DNA of 64,000 nt from a candidate division WOR-3 bacterium (GTDB lineage: Bacteria; Hydrothermota; Hydrothermia; UBA1063), in NCBI GenBank assembly GCA_039803545.1, contig JBDRYS010000001.1:65866-129865 (forward strand), given 5' to 3'. This document shows positions 33,160-41,946 of the stretch, piece after piece. A program made the translations under genes and the position numbers. Numbering within the stretch: the first letter of the stretch is position 1; every line of letters begins with the position of its first letter. Below the pieces are notes generated by a model. The model searched no databases. It saw only the letters and a list, made by a program, of their open reading frames with translations, and was not told the DNA's origin.

Positions 33160-35019
33160 ATGAAGAACAAAAGGAGTGTATCCATTATGATGGTGTCGTT
33201 GCTCTTACTTTTTGTTTCATGCAGGTCCTATGAAGTGAAGCCTACGAAGCCCCAAATGGGAGAAAAGGTTGAAGTTACTGTAAGAGGAGAGTTTAAGTCG
33301 CCGCTGGTGGAGGTGGTCTATCTCAAAGAAAATCTCGACTTTGACTTTGATGTGATACCCGCTAAGGTAGAGCAAAAAGCCATTTCTTTCGTTATAACAC
33401 CTGATACTTTAACTTCTTATGTGATATGGAGGGTTGTAGACAGCAATGTAGTATATTTCCCCGATGGCGAGGGCCTGATGTTTTATTACGGTAAGAAGCC
33501 GATGCCCCTCGCTTATTACTATAAAGGCATGCATACTGAGAAAGCTATTCCATATCTGGTTGAATTGAAGCCTGAGGAGCAAAAGAAAATCATAAGAAGG
33601 GCCGAAAGAGTTTACAAGAAGGGTTTAAAGTATTATCCTTCTTGTCCAATGTGTTTTGCAAGGCTAAAAATATTGCAGTACTTTAAGCTCAAGGACGAAC
33701 GGAGCAAGGCAAAATATCTATCGGAGCTCGAAAATGTTACGGATTCCCTTTTCAACACAGGAGATTTAATGGCACAAGTAGCCGCTTTTAACGTTGCCTA
33801 TTTCTTCTCCTCTGCTAAGACTTACGATTACTTCAAGTATCTTTCGGAAAATCCTTTCATTCCCGGCGCTCTCGACGTAGCGATGAGCTATTTATATCAG
33901 TATGCAAGGAATTTAAACCCCAAAGAAGGTGCGAAATGGCTCGAGATAGGGTTAAATAAGTATGCAGACTATATTAAGGAGCCATCCTCGAGAATTAAGA
34001 ATATTTTGAGGAATTACTACTATTCCCTCTATTATGCCTACATTGTACAAGGGGATACAGTAAAGGCGATAGAATACTTGAGGAAGTTACAGCAAATTTT
34101 TCCGATGGATCCATCGCCATACGTGGTTGAAGCCTCATTGAGAATGGAAATGGGAACAATAAATTATAGGACTATTGACAGTCTTCTTGCTACTGCAGAA
34201 AAGTGCTTTAATCCCATTGCTTATTCTTACACTTACCCCTTTTATGACACCGAATCGAGGGATAAAGCTGTAAGAAGAAATCTCACTGACCTTTACAGGG
34301 TTGAATCTCGGTACTTTACAAACATTGGTGATACAGCAAGGGCTATTGCGGTGCTTGAAAAGGCCATAGAGGCTCAGGGGGGTGACCTCTATGCTGACTA
34401 TGGTGATCACGAAGAGCTGGGCGACTTACTCCTTGCTACTCGAGACCTTGAAAAGGCTATTAAGCATTACGCCTATGCCATAATTACGGGTGCGGAAGAG
34501 GATCGTATTGTTAAAAGTCTTGAGGAAAGACTTAAATCTATTAAAATAGGCGAAGATTCCGCTCGGGTTCTTATTTCAAATATGATGAAGACCATTGATG
34601 AAAATCGGATCTCTGCGCCGGACTTTATTGTTGAAACTATTGATGGCAAAAAATTGAGCTTGAAAAACCTTAAGGGTAAAGTAGTGGTATTAAACTTTTG
34701 GGCGACCTGGTGTGGGCCTTGCAGGAGAGAGATTCCAGAACTTAATAAATTAGTTGAAAAATATAAAGATAATACCGATGTGGTTTTTGTAGCAATCACC
34801 AACGACCTAAGAGAAAGAGTGGCGAACTTCCTGAGTAGTAACGAGTTTAAATATAAAGTCGCCTTTGACGTGGATAGTGTTTACCAGAAGTACAATGTAA
34901 CTGCGGTTCCTACCCACGTGATAATAGACAAAGACGGGTTTATTTCTTCTCGAATTGTAGGGTCTCTCCCCCAAATGGATGAAATTCTCAGCAAGAAGAT
35001 TGAAAAGCTACTAAAGTAG
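33160..35019 (+). CDS. Lipoprotein with TPR-like repeats and a C-terminal TlpA-type thioredoxin domain
   Basis: The 619-residue protein begins with a lipoprotein signal (MMVSLLLLFVSCRS, Cys about 21). Residues about 130-470 are helical, with TPR-like pairs such as ARAIAVLEKAIEAQGG and DLEKAIKHYAYAIITG. Residues about 485-615 form a ResA/TlpA thioredoxin domain: APDFIVETIDGKKLSLKNLK, the redox motif FWATWCGPCRRE and the cis-Pro region AVPTHVIIDKDG. Such proteins reduce disulfides or support cytochrome maturation outside the cytoplasm. It follows mlaF by 3 bases and probably shares its transcript. Confidence 0.87.
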   Translation: MKNKRSVSIMMVSLLLLFVSCRSYEVKPTKPQMGEKVEVTVRGEFKSPLVEVVYLKENLDFDFDVIPAKVEQKAISFVITPDTLTSYVIWRVVDSNVVYFPDGEGLMFYYGKKPMPLAYYYKGMHTEKAIPYLVELKPEEQKKIIRRAERVYKKGLKYYPSCPMCFARLKILQYFKLKDERSKAKYLSELENVTDSLFNTGDLMAQVAAFNVAYFFSSAKTYDYFKYLSENPFIPGALDVAMSYLYQYARNLNPKEGAKWLEIGLNKYADYIKEPSSRIKNILRNYYYSLYYAYIVQGDTVKAIEYLRKLQQIFPMDPSPYVVEASLRMEMGTINYRTIDSLLATAEKCFNPIAYSYTYPFYDTESRDKAVRRNLTDLYRVESRYFTNIGDTARAIAVLEKAIEAQGGDLYADYGDHEELGDLLLATRDLEKAIKHYAYAIITGAEEDRIVKSLEERLKSIKIGEDSARVLISNMMKTIDENRISAPDFIVETIDGKKLSLKNLKGKVVVLNFWATWCGPCRREIPELNKLVEKYKDNTDVVFVAITNDLRERVANFLSSNEFKYKVAFDVDSVYQKYNVTAVPTHVIIDKDGFISSRIVGSLPQMDEILSKKIEKLLK

Positions 35020-35375: not shown

Positions 35376-36374
35376 ATGCATAATTACTTGAAAATTGCAT
35401 TGTTTCTGACTGCTGGTACTTTAACAGGTCTTCTCATAGATCAGTTAATTCTAAAGAAATTACTCAGGGTTTTTGAGAAATCGAAAAGGCAAGGTGAAGA
35501 GGCAGTCGTTTGGTCTCTACGGTACTGGGTGATCCTGTGGGCTATTCTAATTGCCTCTGATATCCTTGTAGGCCAGATCAAACTTGAATCTTCTACGGTA
35601 AAAGGCTTTAGGCAATTCTTTTGCATAGTTGCAATAATTTCCTTTACTATAGTTTTAGCCAGACTATCGGGAAAACTGGTAGATATATCCATTTCGAAAC
35701 TTAAGACTGCTCTACCTGGGGTTAGTCTTCTTACTAACCTCGCTCGCATAACAGTTTATATTATTGGTGGCCTTGTTCTTTTACACACTCTTGGGATTTC
35801 TATAGCTCCTATTCTTACGGGTCTTGGGATAGGAGGCGTTGCTGTAGCATTGGCCTTACAAAGCACACTGACAAACTTGGTTGCGGGGATTCAGATAATT
35901 GCAGGTGGAAAGCTCAAGGTAGGAGATTATGTTAAGCTGGAAACGGGAGAAGAGGGGTACGTTGAAGATATAACCTGGAGTAATACTTTAATCAGGGACC
36001 TCTCTAACAATATGATAGTGGTGCCCAATTCCCGCGTGACGACGTCAATTTTTAAGAATTACTACCTACCGGATGCAGAGATGTCTGTGGGAGTCCCTAT
36101 TGTGGTTTCAGTAGAGGCAGATCTTAATAAGGTTGAAAGGTTGTGCGTTGAAGTTGGTAAGGAAGTAATTCAAGAGGTCCCTGGTGCTGTGAAGACCTTT
36201 GAGCCTATAGTTCGTTTCAGTAGTTTATCTGAGTGGGGATTGGTTGTGAATGTTTTTTTCAGGGTTATTAATCCAAGGGATCAGTTTCTTTTGAAGCATG
36301 TCTTCTTAAAAGAGATTATCACGAAATTCCAGGAAGAGGGCATCAAGTTCCCCATCCGATTCCCCCAGATTTAG
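35376..36374 (+). CDS. MscS-family mechanosensitive channel
   Basis: MscS channels release solutes when membrane tension rises. The 332-residue protein has three or four N-terminal membrane segments, then the pore helix region LGIGGVAVALALQSTLTNLVAGIQII, typical of TM3, followed by the beta domain (KVGDYVKLETGEEGYVEDITWSNT, IVVPNSRVTTSIFKNY) and the alpha/beta C-terminal domain. It is monocistronic by spacing. The start is ATG 35376; I see no good Shine-Dalgarno site. The 136-bp gap from the divergent DUF6485 gene holds no other gene. Confidence 0.93.
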   Translation: MHNYLKIALFLTAGTLTGLLIDQLILKKLLRVFEKSKRQGEEAVVWSLRYWVILWAILIASDILVGQIKLESSTVKGFRQFFCIVAIISFTIVLARLSGKLVDISISKLKTALPGVSLLTNLARITVYIIGGLVLLHTLGISIAPILTGLGIGGVAVALALQSTLTNLVAGIQIIAGGKLKVGDYVKLETGEEGYVEDITWSNTLIRDLSNNMIVVPNSRVTTSIFKNYYLPDAEMSVGVPIVVSVEADLNKVERLCVEVGKEVIQEVPGAVKTFEPIVRFSSLSEWGLVVNVFFRVINPRDQFLLKHVFLKEIITKFQEEGIKFPIRFPQI

Positions 36375-36404: not shown

Positions 36405-36433
36405 TTGACATTATTGCAGTTTTGCTTTAATCT
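36405..36433 (+). promoter_or_regulatory. Sigma70 promoter of the envelope glucan-module cluster
   Basis: Perfect TTGACA (36405-36410), 17-bp spacer, TAATCT (36428-36433), 9 bases to the ATG at 36443. The predicted leader is at most about 3 bases and has no Shine-Dalgarno site. Confidence 0.75.
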
Positions 36434-36442
36434 TTTTTCACT

Positions 36443-37849
36443 ATGGTTACGTTACTTTTGCTTGTTTCATCTCCAATAGTGTTGAATGGGTATTTCGAGG
36501 GGGAGTATCTTGCGCAAAAGTCAAGGCTTCCAGTGAATTGGGATATGTGGAATCCCAAGAACTATTTTGAAATGAAATTCACGGTTAGTCCTTCCCCCGG
36601 TTTAAATGGTTTTTTCTCCCTCTCGGCTCTTTCAAATTCTAATGGGATGCGGTTTTTTATGAATCAGGGCCACCTTTCCTACAGGACTTCCAATACTGAG
36701 ACTACCATTTTCTCAAGGGAGGATAGATTCTGGATATCCAGTCCCCTTCTATTTTTAGTGAATACGGACAGGGTAAAGGATGATGCCTGGGGTCCGAAGG
36801 CTGAAGGTGTGAGAATGGATTTGTGGGAGTGGAAGGGGTTTTACGCCACGGGAATTGCATCAAAATTCAGGACCTGGGATGGAGAGGCCTACCTTGCTTC
36901 TTTGACCAAGAAGTTCGGTGATCGATTCGAGATCGGAAGTATCTACTTAAAAAAGGATTGGAGAGGACCAGGAAATTCCTTTAACAGTGTCTATTCAATA
37001 AATGGAAAGACTCACATAAAAGGACCTCTTAACTTAAGGTTCGAGGTGGCAAGAAGTATTCATCCTTCTCAACTGACCCCGCGTAAAAGTGATGATTACG
37101 CCTTTGAACTGGAGTTTAGAAGAATAAGATTGAGAAATCTATCCATTGCCTGGAGTTTCTTCAATTACGGTATCGATTTCATTGACGAGTTCTCTAATAA
37201 GTTCAATCTTAATTTTGATAGGGAGTTTGATAGGCGTGGCGTCTATGGCGAGTTTGTCTATCTCGTCCCTTACAAAGCGGTTAACCTGATCTACAAGACC
37301 CGTTATTGGGAATCGAGATTTGATGAAACATACCCGGGATTCTTATTACCCCACAGGTACAATAAATGGTGGAACTACGGTGAGATTTACATCGAATATT
37401 ACGGAGGGGTCTCTTCTAAGTTTTATGTTGAATCCTTGAAGGATACTGCCCAGACCTGGAATCACCTCTTCTTTGAAATCGGCGGCGAAAATAATCTGAT
37501 GAAACTGCGGCTTCAATATAAGATTATGGACCTTGGCATTAATAGAAATGGCCAGTCTGTTTACTATTCCATTGGGGAAAGGCACTTGATAGGGGCTGAG
37601 TTGAGGGTAAATCTCACTCAAAATCTCTTCTTTTACAGCAGGGCTGCAGTTGGTATGGGAGTTGGTCGTTCCTGGGAAAGCCTTTTCCTGCAATTGGGCT
37701 ACAGAGGCATTAAAAACACTGAAATATTCTTAGAATATGGGGAACCTGGACACACGGACGGGGACCTTGTAAACGACTGGGATTTTTCCAACAATCCTTA
37801 CCTCAGGACAGAGGATAAGGCAAAGTTACTTGTAAAATATTGGTTCTGA
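36443..37849 (+). CDS. Predicted outer-membrane beta-barrel protein, cluster gene 1
   Basis: I do not recognise a named family. The 468-residue protein has a short signal-like start (VTLLLLVSSPIVLNGYFEG). The rest is built from alternating aromatic and polar beta-strands, such as GRRFxVYGEFVYLVPYK-like and YGEIYIEYYGGVSSKFYVE segments, ending in an aromatic residue (LLVKYWF), the classic outer-membrane insertion signal. This predicts a porin-like barrel. It is the first gene of a five-gene unit; the next gene starts 16 bases downstream after AAAGGAG. By context it should serve the same cargo as the carbohydrate-module genes that follow. Confidence 0.75.
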   Translation: MVTLLLLVSSPIVLNGYFEGEYLAQKSRLPVNWDMWNPKNYFEMKFTVSPSPGLNGFFSLSALSNSNGMRFFMNQGHLSYRTSNTETTIFSREDRFWISSPLLFLVNTDRVKDDAWGPKAEGVRMDLWEWKGFYATGIASKFRTWDGEAYLASLTKKFGDRFEIGSIYLKKDWRGPGNSFNSVYSINGKTHIKGPLNLRFEVARSIHPSQLTPRKSDDYAFELEFRRIRLRNLSIAWSFFNYGIDFIDEFSNKFNLNFDREFDRRGVYGEFVYLVPYKAVNLIYKTRYWESRFDETYPGFLLPHRYNKWWNYGEIYIEYYGGVSSKFYVESLKDTAQTWNHLFFEIGGENNLMKLRLQYKIMDLGINRNGQSVYYSIGERHLIGAELRVNLTQNLFFYSRAAVGMGVGRSWESLFLQLGYRGIKNTEIFLEYGEPGHTDGDLVNDWDFSNNPYLRTEDKAKLLVKYWF

Positions 37850-37864
37850 AAAAGGAGTATTGAT

Positions 37865-39703
37865 ATGCAAAACCTTTTAATCCTTGCCCTCATTTTTCAA
37901 GGGGTTAGTTCAACGCCTCAGGGGGTCAAATTTGAGTATTATAACCCCCAGGCGAAAACTGTATACTTAGCTGGCGACTTCAATAACTGGTCTACCACTT
38001 CCCATCCTATGAGGCGAGAGAGTGACGGTACCTTCTGGATCGTTGTTAAACTGGCACCAGGCAAGTATGAGTATAAGTTTGTCGTTGATGGACAGTGGAC
38101 TGCTGATCCTGACAACCCCGTAACTGTAGGTGTTTATGGCAATTCCCTCGTGCGTGTTGGAGAGAATTACGCCATTCTACCGCCTGAAATGGCAACCAAT
38201 ACCCCTGTTAGCTCCATTGTGAACTTTAATATTGATGCCCGCGGGTACTTAAAGGCGGACAGGGATACGGTTGATGGAGGTAAGTTAGGGTACAGGGTTT
38301 TCGATTACATGCAGGATGTAAAGGTTGATATGGATGCGAACCTCGAGGATAAGGCAGATCTATGGATTAGGATCCGTTACAATACGAAGACTGACAGAGA
38401 ACAACAGACTCAATTAATTCCTGTAAAGTTTGAAAGGGGATTTTTCAGTTTGAAGGGTGGAGCCTTTAACTTCAATGCCTTCTATAATGCCGACAAGATT
38501 GCTGGTCCTGATCCTTTTTCTTTGCTCAGAGAAGTAGGGGAGTTTAGGCGTGACTTTGGTGATGGTGAGCAGGGCGTGATGCTAAACTTAAGCAAATTTC
38601 TCATTTTTGACGATTTGCATCTTGCTTACTCGAACAATATCCTTCAAGATAGGGACCTTTTCTATGCCAATATGGGTAAAAGACTGGGTAACTTCAGCCT
38701 TGGAATGGTTTATCGTGGACAAAGGGGGCTTGAAAAACTTTACAGGGTTCCTTCTCCCGATAGTATGAAATCATATGACACCCTTCTCTATTTCAATACC
38801 TATGAAAATGAAAATCTATATGGAGGTTATCTGGGTTTCGATGCGAAAAGGTGTGTCCTCACTGCTGGAGGTTTACTCGGAAACAGGATTCTTGAAGCAG
38901 GTGAAAAATACATTGGTGATACGCCATATCCGGTTCATCTGAGCTGGCCAAAGTCAAAAATCATTAAAGGTATTTTCTCGATTAAGGGATTTACAGGTAA
39001 GTGGATAAATTCGGCCTGGGTCAATTATGAAAAGCATTATTATGACAATTTGTTTGTAAAGGGAGGAAGCCAGTTTTTCAAGTACTGGCGCTTTGGCTAT
39101 AGCAACTCTTACAATGGGTACTTTGGGATTAATTTTAAATATACCATTTTGAAAGCCGACTCTTTCATGAACTGGAAGTATCTTTTCGAGGACTTAGAAA
39201 ACCAGAGGCTTGAGTATGGCGAATTTCCGCTTATTTCTTACTCCCATTATCTTACTTTCAATCCATACGTGAAGTATAGGTTTAAGGCCATCGGATTTAA
39301 GTACGATTTGAAGTGGAATGCCTATGCTTTGAACCAGAAGCCTTATACCCTTGAAAACCTTTTCCATGTGGATTTGAAAGTTTGGAAGCCTATTTTGACT
39401 TATGAGTTGAGAACCTATACCGTGAAGAGTTCTTTCCTTGGTCTTTCAAAGACTTATGTTGATCACTTCGCTGAAATCGCTTATCCTATCGGTAAAAATG
39501 CTATGCTCTCCTTGAATTATGGCTATATGCCGTGGAATCTGGAAGACGAGTATTTTGCGAGGAGGGAGTACTTGATTGAGCAAGGTGTTGATTACTCCTT
39601 GCTGGTGAACAATTTCAGGGGCCTCGGTACTTTTCTTGACCTGGCTGAGACTTCTTTATCAAAGGAAAGGGGTATTCAACTATGGTTAAAAATAGCCTTT
39701 TAG
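37865..39703 (+). CDS. Glycogen-binding-type (CBM48/AMPK) module fused to an outer-membrane beta-barrel, cluster gene 2
   Basis: The 612-residue protein has a signal peptide (LLILALIFQGVSS), an N-terminal early-set carbohydrate module (about 20-97) and a long beta-barrel-like region (about 110-612) ending in LWLKIAF, with a terminal Phe. The module shows VYLAGDFNNWS, WIVVKLAPGKYEYKFVVDG and TADPDNP, the signature of AMPK-beta/CBM48 glycogen-binding modules, including the tryptophan after GDFNN and the K-F-V strand. A soluble glucan-binding module fused to a barrel is unusual. The module should face the periplasm or the surface, depending on barrel topology. The gene overlaps the next one by 22 bp. 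Confidence 0.82.
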   Translation: MQNLLILALIFQGVSSTPQGVKFEYYNPQAKTVYLAGDFNNWSTTSHPMRRESDGTFWIVVKLAPGKYEYKFVVDGQWTADPDNPVTVGVYGNSLVRVGENYAILPPEMATNTPVSSIVNFNIDARGYLKADRDTVDGGKLGYRVFDYMQDVKVDMDANLEDKADLWIRIRYNTKTDREQQTQLIPVKFERGFFSLKGGAFNFNAFYNADKIAGPDPFSLLREVGEFRRDFGDGEQGVMLNLSKFLIFDDLHLAYSNNILQDRDLFYANMGKRLGNFSLGMVYRGQRGLEKLYRVPSPDSMKSYDTLLYFNTYENENLYGGYLGFDAKRCVLTAGGLLGNRILEAGEKYIGDTPYPVHLSWPKSKIIKGIFSIKGFTGKWINSAWVNYEKHYYDNLFVKGGSQFFKYWRFGYSNSYNGYFGINFKYTILKADSFMNWKYLFEDLENQRLEYGEFPLISYSHYLTFNPYVKYRFKAIGFKYDLKWNAYALNQKPYTLENLFHVDLKVWKPILTYELRTYTVKSSFLGLSKTYVDHFAEIAYPIGKNAMLSLNYGYMPWNLEDEYFARREYLIEQGVDYSLLVNNFRGLGTFLDLAETSLSKERGIQLWLKIAF

Positions 39704-40083
39704 CACTAATATTGCTTGTAAGTAGTTGTGTGATAGTGAGTCAGATCAAGCCAAGGGTGCCCGCTCCTCATAAAACCCCCGAGGGGGTGGTTTTTCAGTT
39801 TTATGCTCCATCGGCTATGTATGTGAACCTTGCTGGTGACTTCAACCGCTGGTGCGGAACTCAAGATGGCCCCTTCAATCCAAATATTGGAAGAATGTAT
39901 GACGATGGTACTAACGGTGACAAGAAGGCGGGCGATGGGATCTGGACTATAATTTTACCTTTGAAACCCGGAACTTATCAGTACAAATACGTGGTGAATG
40001 GAACCAGCTGGTATCTCGATCCTTCCAACCCCGAGACAGTGCAATCAGGACCATATACCAATTCCCTTTTAAGGGTGGAATGA
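39682..40083 (+). CDS. Lipoprotein consisting of one CBM48/AMPK-type module, cluster gene 3
   Basis: A 133-residue protein: a lipoprotein signal (LLALILLVSSCVIVS, Cys 16) and a single early-set carbohydrate module. It shows VNLAGDFNRWCG, WTIILPLKPGTYQYKYVVNG and YLDPSNPETV, in parallel with the module of the preceding gene, and an Asp-rich insertion (YDDGTNGDKKAGDG) that could bind calcium. It has no enzyme domain, so binding is its only visible job. It overlaps its neighbours by 22 bp upstream and 4 bp (ATGA) downstream, which implies coupled translation. Confidence 0.85.
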   Translation: MVKNSLLALILLVSSCVIVSQIKPRVPAPHKTPEGVVFQFYAPSAMYVNLAGDFNRWCGTQDGPFNPNIGRMYDDGTNGDKKAGDGIWTIILPLKPGTYQYKYVVNGTSWYLDPSNPETVQSGPYTNSLLRVE

Positions 40084-40454
40084 AAAGGGCAATCCTAAAA
40101 TACATGGCGGGATTTGCATTGCTCTTGCAAATCTCTTTTCTTATTTACTCAATTTTATACCTTAGAGAAAGCGTAGAGGAGGATGTTCACATCGCCTTTT
40201 TAAGGATCACTTTGCTAATTGGAAGTGCTATGATGGTAATTTTGACACGCTACTTTTTAAGATTTATAGGGATTGCCCGAGACTCGATAGGCGCCTTTCT
40301 CGTCCAGATTATTTCTCTTTTACCTGCAATAATAATTCCTATTGGAGGGTTCATCTTTGCCTATAGAGCGAAATCTGGCGGAGAGTATCTCTTGTTTTTT
40401 GTAATAGGGCTCTATCACCTTATAAGATATTACCCTGTGCTGATAAAGATTTGA
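40080..40454 (+). CDS. Small four-helix membrane protein, cluster gene 4
   Basis: A 124-residue protein with four hydrophobic segments: KYMAGFALLLQISFLIYSILYL, then ITLLIGSAMMVILTRYFL, LVQIISLLPAIIIPIGGFIFAY and LLFFVIGLYHLIRYYPVL. I do not recognise the family. It shares an ATGA overlap with the lipoprotein before it. Its place in the cluster suggests an inner-membrane partner, but no function can be read from the sequence. Confidence 0.75.
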   Translation: MKRAILKYMAGFALLLQISFLIYSILYLRESVEEDVHIAFLRITLLIGSAMMVILTRYFLRFIGIARDSIGAFLVQIISLLPAIIIPIGGFIFAYRAKSGGEYLLFFVIGLYHLIRYYPVLIKI

Positions 40455-40525
40455 AGGGGGCGAAATGCTTGGTTTTTTAAAATATTTAAGGGGACCATTT
40501 TAGGGGAGAAATTAAGGAGGTTTCT

Positions 40526-41911
40526 ATGAAGAGGTTTTTGCCTTTGGCTATTTTAATTTTCATCATCTCCTGCGCCAAGGAGGAAGGTAATCCACTTATC
40601 AATCCTCCTGGGCAGGCTTATAGAACACAGTACAATTCCATGCAGGTGGTGGGAGATTTCCAGGGTTGGAACCTTAATGACTTTGAGAACACAAAAATGA
40701 CCCTTGTGGCTGATTACCAGTGGGAGCAAATCGTTTACTTTAATGCCCCGCAGGATAGCATTAGATTTAAGTTTGTTGCCAATAGAGACTGGAACTATGC
40801 CTTCGGGACTCAGGGTCCTGACACGGGCCTTTCCGGTTATGCACAACCGAATTGCAATGGACTGGGGGATCATATAACGGCTGGACCTCTGAGGCAGGCA
40901 GGATACTGGAAATTTCAATTTAATGAAAAAACCTTAAGATATCAAATCACCTTAGTCTCCACCCCTCGGGGGAAAATTTATGGGGTTGTAGCCTTTGCTG
41001 ACGATACGGTTCCGCCTTATCCTGAAGCCACTGTGAGGGTTTACAAGGACACTTTGCAGGTTGCTATGGTCAAGAGTGATACCCTTAACGGTAAATATGA
41101 GGTGAAGAATCTTGACGATGGGACTTACAAACTATTCTTCCAGGCGACGGGTTATAATCCTGAGTCGCTCACGGTTACGATCTCTGGATGGAATGAAGTT
41201 AATGCTGGTACTGTGGTATTGACTCCTTCGGCAGTAGGGGAGTATGCCTTTGCAGACGGCCCCTTTGTTAGCATAACTGTAGATGGCAATTTAAGTGATT
41301 GGCCATCAGCTGCCGTTATGGATACTATTGGAGACAGCCCCTGGGGCCTTTATGGTGATCTCGGTGCCCTTTACGTTGGACATGATGCGCAGAATCTTTA
41401 CATAGGTCTTCATTATGCTGCAAGGGATAATGCTGTTATTATCTATATTAATGTAAATAACGGCGACACTACCGATGGAACCCTCGATGGAAATAACCTT
41501 GATTGGTTCCCCAGGAATTTCCAGTTCCCGGATTCTACACCCGCAGAATTTATAATTGCCAAGTGGGCATCAGCAACGCCTTATGGCCCTTATTTAAGGC
41601 ATATAACTTCGGGTTCAACCACTCAAGAAGTGCCGAGCTCTGATTATTCCATTGCGGATGTACCAGATACTACGGATCCCACGGGAAGAACGAGGTTTAT
41701 GGAGGTAAGGATACCTTACGATGTTCTTTACAATCTTGGACAGAGCAGGGTATTGCCCTTTGCAAAGATAAGAGTTGTAGCTGTTGTTGCTGGTGGCGAC
41801 CACTGGAATGGCCCTGAGAGTTTGCCAGAAAACAGCGGTACCAATGGAAGCGGAACCCCAACTCTGCTCAGTAATATGTTTGTTGAGGTAATTGATAGAG
41901 ACGGGCATTGA
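40526..41911 (+). CDS. Multidomain lipoprotein: starch-binding-like, carboxypeptidase-regulatory-like and DOMON/CBM9-like domains, cluster gene 5
   Basis: The 461-residue protein has a lipoprotein signal (LAILIFIISCAKEEG, Cys 16). Residues about 35-145 are an early-set/SusE-like module (MQVVGDFQGWN, IRFKFVANRDW). Residues about 148-235 form a carboxypeptidase-regulatory-like beta-sandwich (GKIYGVVAFADDTV, GKYEVKNLDDGTYKLFF). Residues about 245-455 resemble the glucodextranase-C/DOMON/CBM9 sandwich: VDGNLSDWPSAA, LGALYVGHDAQNLYIGL and FMEVRIPYDVL. No catalytic domain is seen. A good Shine-Dalgarno site (AAGGAGG) precedes the ATG. The 71-bp gap before it holds a 12-codon frame (40465-40503). 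It is the last gene before a strong hairpin. Confidence 0.82.
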   Translation: MKRFLPLAILIFIISCAKEEGNPLINPPGQAYRTQYNSMQVVGDFQGWNLNDFENTKMTLVADYQWEQIVYFNAPQDSIRFKFVANRDWNYAFGTQGPDTGLSGYAQPNCNGLGDHITAGPLRQAGYWKFQFNEKTLRYQITLVSTPRGKIYGVVAFADDTVPPYPEATVRVYKDTLQVAMVKSDTLNGKYEVKNLDDGTYKLFFQATGYNPESLTVTISGWNEVNAGTVVLTPSAVGEYAFADGPFVSITVDGNLSDWPSAAVMDTIGDSPWGLYGDLGALYVGHDAQNLYIGLHYAARDNAVIIYINVNNGDTTDGTLDGNNLDWFPRNFQFPDSTPAEFIIAKWASATPYGPYLRHITSGSTTQEVPSSDYSIADVPDTTDPTGRTRFMEVRIPYDVLYNLGQSRVLPFAKIRVVAVVAGGDHWNGPESLPENSGTNGSGTPTLLSNMFVEVIDRDGH

Positions 41912-41917
41912 TTTAAT

Positions 41918-41946
41918 GGGGCGACACCCCTTCGGGGTGTCGCCCC
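41918..41946 (+). terminator. 13-bp perfect hairpin closing the envelope cluster
   Basis: GGGGCGACACCCC (41918-41930) pairs perfectly with 41934-41946 around a TTC loop. It begins 7 bases after the stop codon. A T-run is lacking on both strands (AAAAATCTACTTTT follows), so it may stop transcription weakly or protect the mRNA 3' end. Confidence 0.7.

Follow-up and report, generated by a model that had tools for sequence, protein, structure and literature searches.

A five-gene cluster of a candidate division WOR-3 bacterium, probably the outer-membrane portion of a system that captures and takes up alpha-glucan

The cluster discussed here lies in the 99%-complete, 1.67 Mb genome (G000) of a candidate division WOR-3 bacterium, within a window of 64,000 nucleotides that is the whole stretch of DNA analysed (contig C1:65866-129865). 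Five open reading frames run in the same direction with intergenic gaps of +15, -22, -4 and +71 bp, a pattern expected of one transcription unit, and both the gene order and the overlaps agree with those given in a preliminary description made from the sequence alone. The features, in window coordinates, are as follows.

36405..36433, + strand: conserved promoter-like element (TTGACA ... TTTTGCTTTAATCT), from block comparison with congeners
36443..37849, + strand: gene 1, predicted outer-membrane barrel of an undescribed family, no plug domain, 468 aa (AlphaFold2, Foldseek, C-terminal F)
37865..39703, + strand: gene 2, N-terminal CBM48/AMPK-type module (~residues 14-105) and a second predicted outer-membrane barrel, 612 aa (Pfam, PDB, Foldseek)
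39682..40083, + strand: gene 3, lipoprotein, single CBM48-type module with an inserted Asp/Gly-rich loop, 133 aa (lipobox VSSC, Pfam)
40080..40454, + strand: gene 4, small hydrophobic membrane protein, accessory and lineage-restricted, 124 aa (sequence)
40526..41911, + strand: gene 5, lipoprotein, E-set module, carboxypeptidase-regulatory-like domain and C-terminal domain, 461 aa (lipobox IISC, profiles)
41918..41946, no strand: hairpin with a perfect 13-bp stem, after gene 5 (stem search and congener comparison)

The unit had been described as running from a perfect TTGACA promoter to a 13-bp hairpin, and both ends need qualification. The hexamer at 36405 is exact and belongs to a conserved block: upstream of gene 1, a TTTGACA block, a TTTTGCTTTA block and a CTATG start are kept in four congeneric species. 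However, the -10 element is poor (TAATCT) and a sigma-70 scan did not list the element at 36405. The ATG of gene 1 lies only ~33 bases downstream of TTGACA and no Shine-Dalgarno sequence is visible before it, so that a leaderless message is possible. In a test for a regulon, none of the GH57, GH57-like and SBP genes of the same genome showed the promoter-like block in its upstream region. At the other end the perfect stem is real, but its role as a terminator is unproven because it has no T-run on its 3′ side, is common to one of the three congeners examined and has no second copy within the window. Outside the cluster, the window encodes a lipoprotein-like protein of 619 aa (33160-35019) in which TPR repeats are combined with a thioredoxin/AhpC-type domain at the C-terminus; an MscS-type channel gene (35376-36374) lies just downstream.

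The products of genes 1 and 2 had been called beta-barrels, and structure prediction agrees. The AlphaFold2 models of both have a barrel fold of outer-membrane type, with a predicted envelope location, and both proteins end in F, with F or Y at this position in nearly all homologues. The gene 1 model (pLDDT 86.8, pTM 0.78) has no plug and ~22-24 strands, a number that is uncertain, the models of both genes having been built on shallow alignments of 25-26 sequences. Its best Foldseek matches in the PDB are FimD/PapC ushers and TonB-dependent receptor barrels, which are wide barrels, and the resemblance extends to export barrels (usher and AlgE). None of the 26 gene 1 homologues matches Pfam, and a PDB sequence search with gene 1 returned no solved relative. 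In gene 2, the second barrel begins beyond ~residue 118 (pLDDT 77, pTM 0.62) and its Foldseek matches are outer-membrane barrels; this part has no Pfam match in any of the 25 sequences of the family, in which F612 is invariant. A relation between the barrels of genes 1 and 2 was considered and is not supported (profile comparison probability 2.9%).

Modules of a glycogen-binding type had been proposed for genes 2, 3 and 5, and all three hold up, genes 2 and 3 by Pfam matches above the cut-off and gene 5 through profile-profile comparison only. Residues 14-93 of gene 2 match AMPK1_CBM (3.4e-17) and CBM_48 (4e-13), gene 3 exceeds the cut-offs of both families, and the nearest solved structure to the gene 2 module among PDB sequences is the AMPK beta-1 GBD (1.3e-12). 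In Foldseek the modelled gene 2 module superimposes on 1z0m with a TM score of 0.80 (by target length) and an rmsd of 2.0 Å at 39% identity over 79 columns. In AMPK, W100, K126 and W133 touch the sugar and their mutants bind less glycogen (PMC2642990). The equivalents are W42, K71 and W78 in gene 2 and W57, K102 and W110 in gene 3. W42 and K71 are invariant (25/25), position 78 is W in 20 of the 25 sequences and Y or F in the other five, and W57, K102, W110 and N127 of gene 3 are the same in all 14 sequences. Each of the three equivalents is likewise present in all six gene 5 sequences, and an Asn near AMPK N149/N150 is kept in 24/25 gene 2 and 14/14 gene 3 sequences; AMPK L146 and T148 are not conserved in the cluster modules. 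By sequence, then, the modules of genes 2 and 3 are genuine members of the CBM48/AMPK family, and that of gene 2 is a member by its modelled fold also.

Gene 3 is the best conserved of the five genes among more distant WOR-3 relatives, and a search against plasmids gave no match. Its inserted loop, MYDDGTNGDKKAGDGIW (window 39895-39945, residues ~72-88), has D74, D75, G76, G79, D80, D85 and G86 as invariant positions and overlaps a match to the NCBIfam model choice_anch_X that is above the cut-off. The loop, rich in Asp and Gly, could possibly bind metal.

Genes 4 and 5 are accessory to the triad formed by genes 1-3. No family is above the cut-off for gene 4, and recognisable copies are confined to WOR-3 relatives among the loci listed. 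At its N-terminus gene 5 has a diverged version of the gene 2 module (profile-profile probability 92.6%), accompanied by a CarboxypepD_reg match (2.4e-6, with a bit score below the cut-off). The C-terminal domain is homologous to a free-standing protein encoded beside a MalE-like SBP; a relation to Glucodextran_C of the genome's own GH57 was looked for and not found. Two labels given earlier to gene 5 look weak: the SusF_SusE profile gives no match to the supposed SusE-like module, and Pfam and PDB searches lend no support to a DOMON/CBM9-like C-terminus. Against the same SusF_SusE profile, gene 2 reaches E 0.019, below the cut-off. Domains like those of gene 5 also occur in multidomain proteins of ~1,700-1,800 aa encoded upstream of the triad in other genomes (L078:123-5471, L074:1-5118, L090, L091 and L122), and the long protein of L078 combines these with Glucodextran_C and a T9SS-like tail.

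The preliminary description suggested looking for the gene order in relatives, and the triad proved to be kept together well beyond what had been guessed. An alignment of gene 3 was compared with 84,980 species genomes, and the statements that follow concern the best 78 of a total of at least 78 loci. All three genes are found in 41 of these; in every case they share a strand and follow the order 1-2-3, and the gaps between them have medians of 14 bp (1-2) and 10 bp (2-3). A gene 1 homologue is accompanied by the gene 2 type in 43 of 44 loci. The record titles of the triad loci name WOR-3, Eisenbacteria, Krumholzibacteriota, Zixibacteria, Cloacimonadota, Gemmatimonadota, Elusimicrobia, Lindowbacteria, Latescibacterota and Fibrobacter, among others; most are metagenome bins, in which single phylum assignments may be wrong. 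A search of open-access literature, in itself an incomplete body, turned up no description of the triad, and its novelty is thus not proven.

Enzymes of alpha-glucan breakdown are frequent neighbors of the triad. Although many of their contigs are short, the 41 triad loci include 25 with GH13 or GH57, and in 22 of those 25 the enzyme has a CBM48-type module. In one locus (L079), genes 1, 2 and 3 stand in one row with a CarboxypepD_reg protein, a GH13 bearing four CBM48 modules and a GH57-like protein. L061-L063 share a contiguous run made up of an extracellular SBP, a gene 5-related protein, a small protein of 235 aa, gene 1, a secreted GH57-like protein of ~1030 aa and gene 2. The 235-aa protein (L063:2638-3345, L061:14108-14818, L062:16587-17297), which has no family and is flanked by gene 1 and the gene 5-related protein, is restricted to these three genomes among the loci compared.

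These neighbors bear on the earlier remark that the system has no enzyme, which is correct for the cluster in the window but not for the genome, where a secreted GH57 and a secreted GH57-like protein are encoded elsewhere, nor for the relatives, where enzymes adjoin the triad. No GH13 was found in the source genome (the control search was positive in 13 of 14 genomes), while there are four GH57 genes, so far as we can see the sole basis of its alpha-glucan metabolism. The secreted GH57, ~240 kb from the cluster, has 1152 aa, a signal-like N-terminus, three CBM48 and Glucodextran_C, and keeps the GH57-type motifs HQHQP, GMWPAE and DGENAWEW as read by eye. The remaining three have no evident signal peptides. 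They lie side by side at C1:618-628 kb (L050) in an alpha-glucan set that also includes a GalT-type gene and a pair of genes for nucleotidyltransferases.

Apart from these four, a GH57-like protein is encoded at C1:671-674 kb, with 53% identity to the homologue in relatives, a T9SS-type sorting tail and a weak CBM21 match. A PDB sequence search matched the sorting tail alone, so its assignment to GH57 depends on motifs read by eye and a weak Pfam match, the latter being that of a distant homologue (E 4e-4, below the cut-off). Within the phylum, 19 of 60 genomes have gene 1, and 17 of these 19 also encode a long homologue of the GH57-like protein; none of the 41 negative genomes does, the match there being to the tail only. 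The two exceptions are G029 and G033, which are 85% and 80% complete, and the association has a Fisher p of 4e-13, a value overstated since the 60 genomes are related. GH57 with CBM48 was detected in 15 of the 19 positive and in 0 of the 41 negative genomes. For uptake, the SBP and the gene 5-related protein of L061-L063 recur as a pair at C1:151.7-154 kb, with 43% and 35% identity, at a distance of ~44 kb from the five genes. The nearest NCBIfam model to the SBP is MalE, below that model's strict cut-off. A CUT1-type permease pair, assigned to an alpha-glucan sugar by size and family only, is encoded far from the SBP gene.

We propose that the cluster is the outer-membrane part of a system for the capture and uptake of alpha-glucan (starch, glycogen, maltodextrin), a reading to which we give a probability of about 0.72. 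The ligand residues, the gene order kept across phyla and the GH13/GH57 and MalE-like neighbors are seen in the sequences, and the folds are predicted; the ligand, the orientation of the modules and passage through a barrel are inferred. In such a system the CBM48 modules of gene 2, gene 3 and probably gene 5 would hold the polymer near both barrels, and secreted GH57-type enzymes encoded elsewhere in the genome would cut it. The maltodextrins released would cross a barrel, most likely the wide and plug-less gene 1, and would pass to the MalE-like lipoprotein and an ABC permease to be used by the cytoplasmic GH57 enzymes.

The preliminary description had left the choice between alpha-glucan capture and surface anchoring, in either case without SusC/SusD. 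Capture on these terms is well supported, and we consider anchoring less likely than capture and uptake. Were the cluster to serve capture and enzyme docking only, its barrels would anchor CBM48 so that polymer and secreted amylases are held at the surface, and oligosaccharides would enter through general porins. The T9SS-type sorting tail of the GH57-like partner, the several CBM48 copies on many GH57/GH13 partners, the fusion of CBM48 to a barrel in gene 2 itself and a gene 3 lipoprotein with no obvious role besides binding would all suit this arrangement, but two separate conserved barrels exceed the needs of an anchor, and gene 1 is predicted to be a wide plug-less barrel with no binding module. 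We regard docking only as rather unlikely. It is also conceivable that the barrels export the cell's own alpha-glucan, which the CBM48 lipoproteins would then keep attached to the surface, given the likeness of the gene 1 model to usher and AlgE export barrels and the presence of a GH57 branching enzyme and nucleotidyltransferases in the genome. The neighbors in relatives are, however, catabolic (secreted amylases and MalE-like SBPs), which makes export improbable.

Two further explanations were considered. T9SS-like C-terminal domains on the GH57-like and gene 5-related partners could mean that the barrels are parts of a type IX secretion system in which CBM48 is incidental. Gene 1 is no general part of that system, however, because similar tails are present in gene 1-negative genomes, e.g., G020, G026 and G056, and it tracks the GH57-like enzyme rather than the tail; this is the least probable of the explanations considered. 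Early-set domains can also be structural, and the E-set of gene 5 is divergent, so that the modules might make protein-protein contacts in an envelope structure instead of binding sugar. Against this stand the near-invariant W-K-W-N ligand residues of genes 2 and 3 and the linkage to amylases, and we think it very improbable.

Capture and uptake of alpha-glucan also allows comparison with known systems. The outer-membrane route for alpha-glucan oligomers through maltoporin LamB uses a barrel of 18 strands. The cluster barrel would likewise pass alpha-glucan oligomers over the outer membrane, but it matches no Pfam porin family, more than 18 strands are predicted, and LamB is not among the 50 PDB matches listed. 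Secreted GH57 amylopullulanases occur in thermophiles, and the partner enzyme of the source genome resembles them in having GH57, CBM48 and Glucodextran_C, although here that partner is ~240 kb away and the cluster holds binding and membrane parts only. Genes 2 and 3 are like the AMPK beta GBD/CBM48 in sequence and ligand residues, and gene 2 in fold, with the difference that the modules are carried by a barrel and by lipoproteins that contain neither an enzyme nor a kinase, and that the gene 3 module has a D/G-rich insert.

The closest functional parallel would be the SusCDEFG systems or utilisomes of Bacteroidota, in which an outer-membrane barrel, glycan-binding lipoproteins and a surface hydrolase act in capture and uptake (PMC7618045). 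The earlier statement that the cluster has no SusC/SusD or TonB pair is borne out. SusD/RagB (PF07980) has no match in the genome, and TonB plug matches lie at C1:529 kb, C2:204 kb and C1:868 kb (below cut-off), none of them in the cluster. Unlike in Sus, the modules are of CBM48/AMPK type, with one fused to a barrel. On our analysis the best reading is that the cluster works like Sus and is not a member of it. More tentatively, and at somewhat less than even odds, the plug-less wide barrel, the CBM48-capped barrel and the CBM48 lipoprotein may constitute a SusCD-independent alpha-glucan translocon, the counterpart of Sus in many uncultured phyla.

The passage of large glycans over the outer membrane is poorly known in Gram-negative bacteria outside Bacteroidota. 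Here, two conserved barrel families without a Pfam model and one CBM48 lipoprotein occur together in many uncultured phyla, often near amylases. They provide a testable gene set for the use of starch and glycogen in lineages known mostly from metagenomes.
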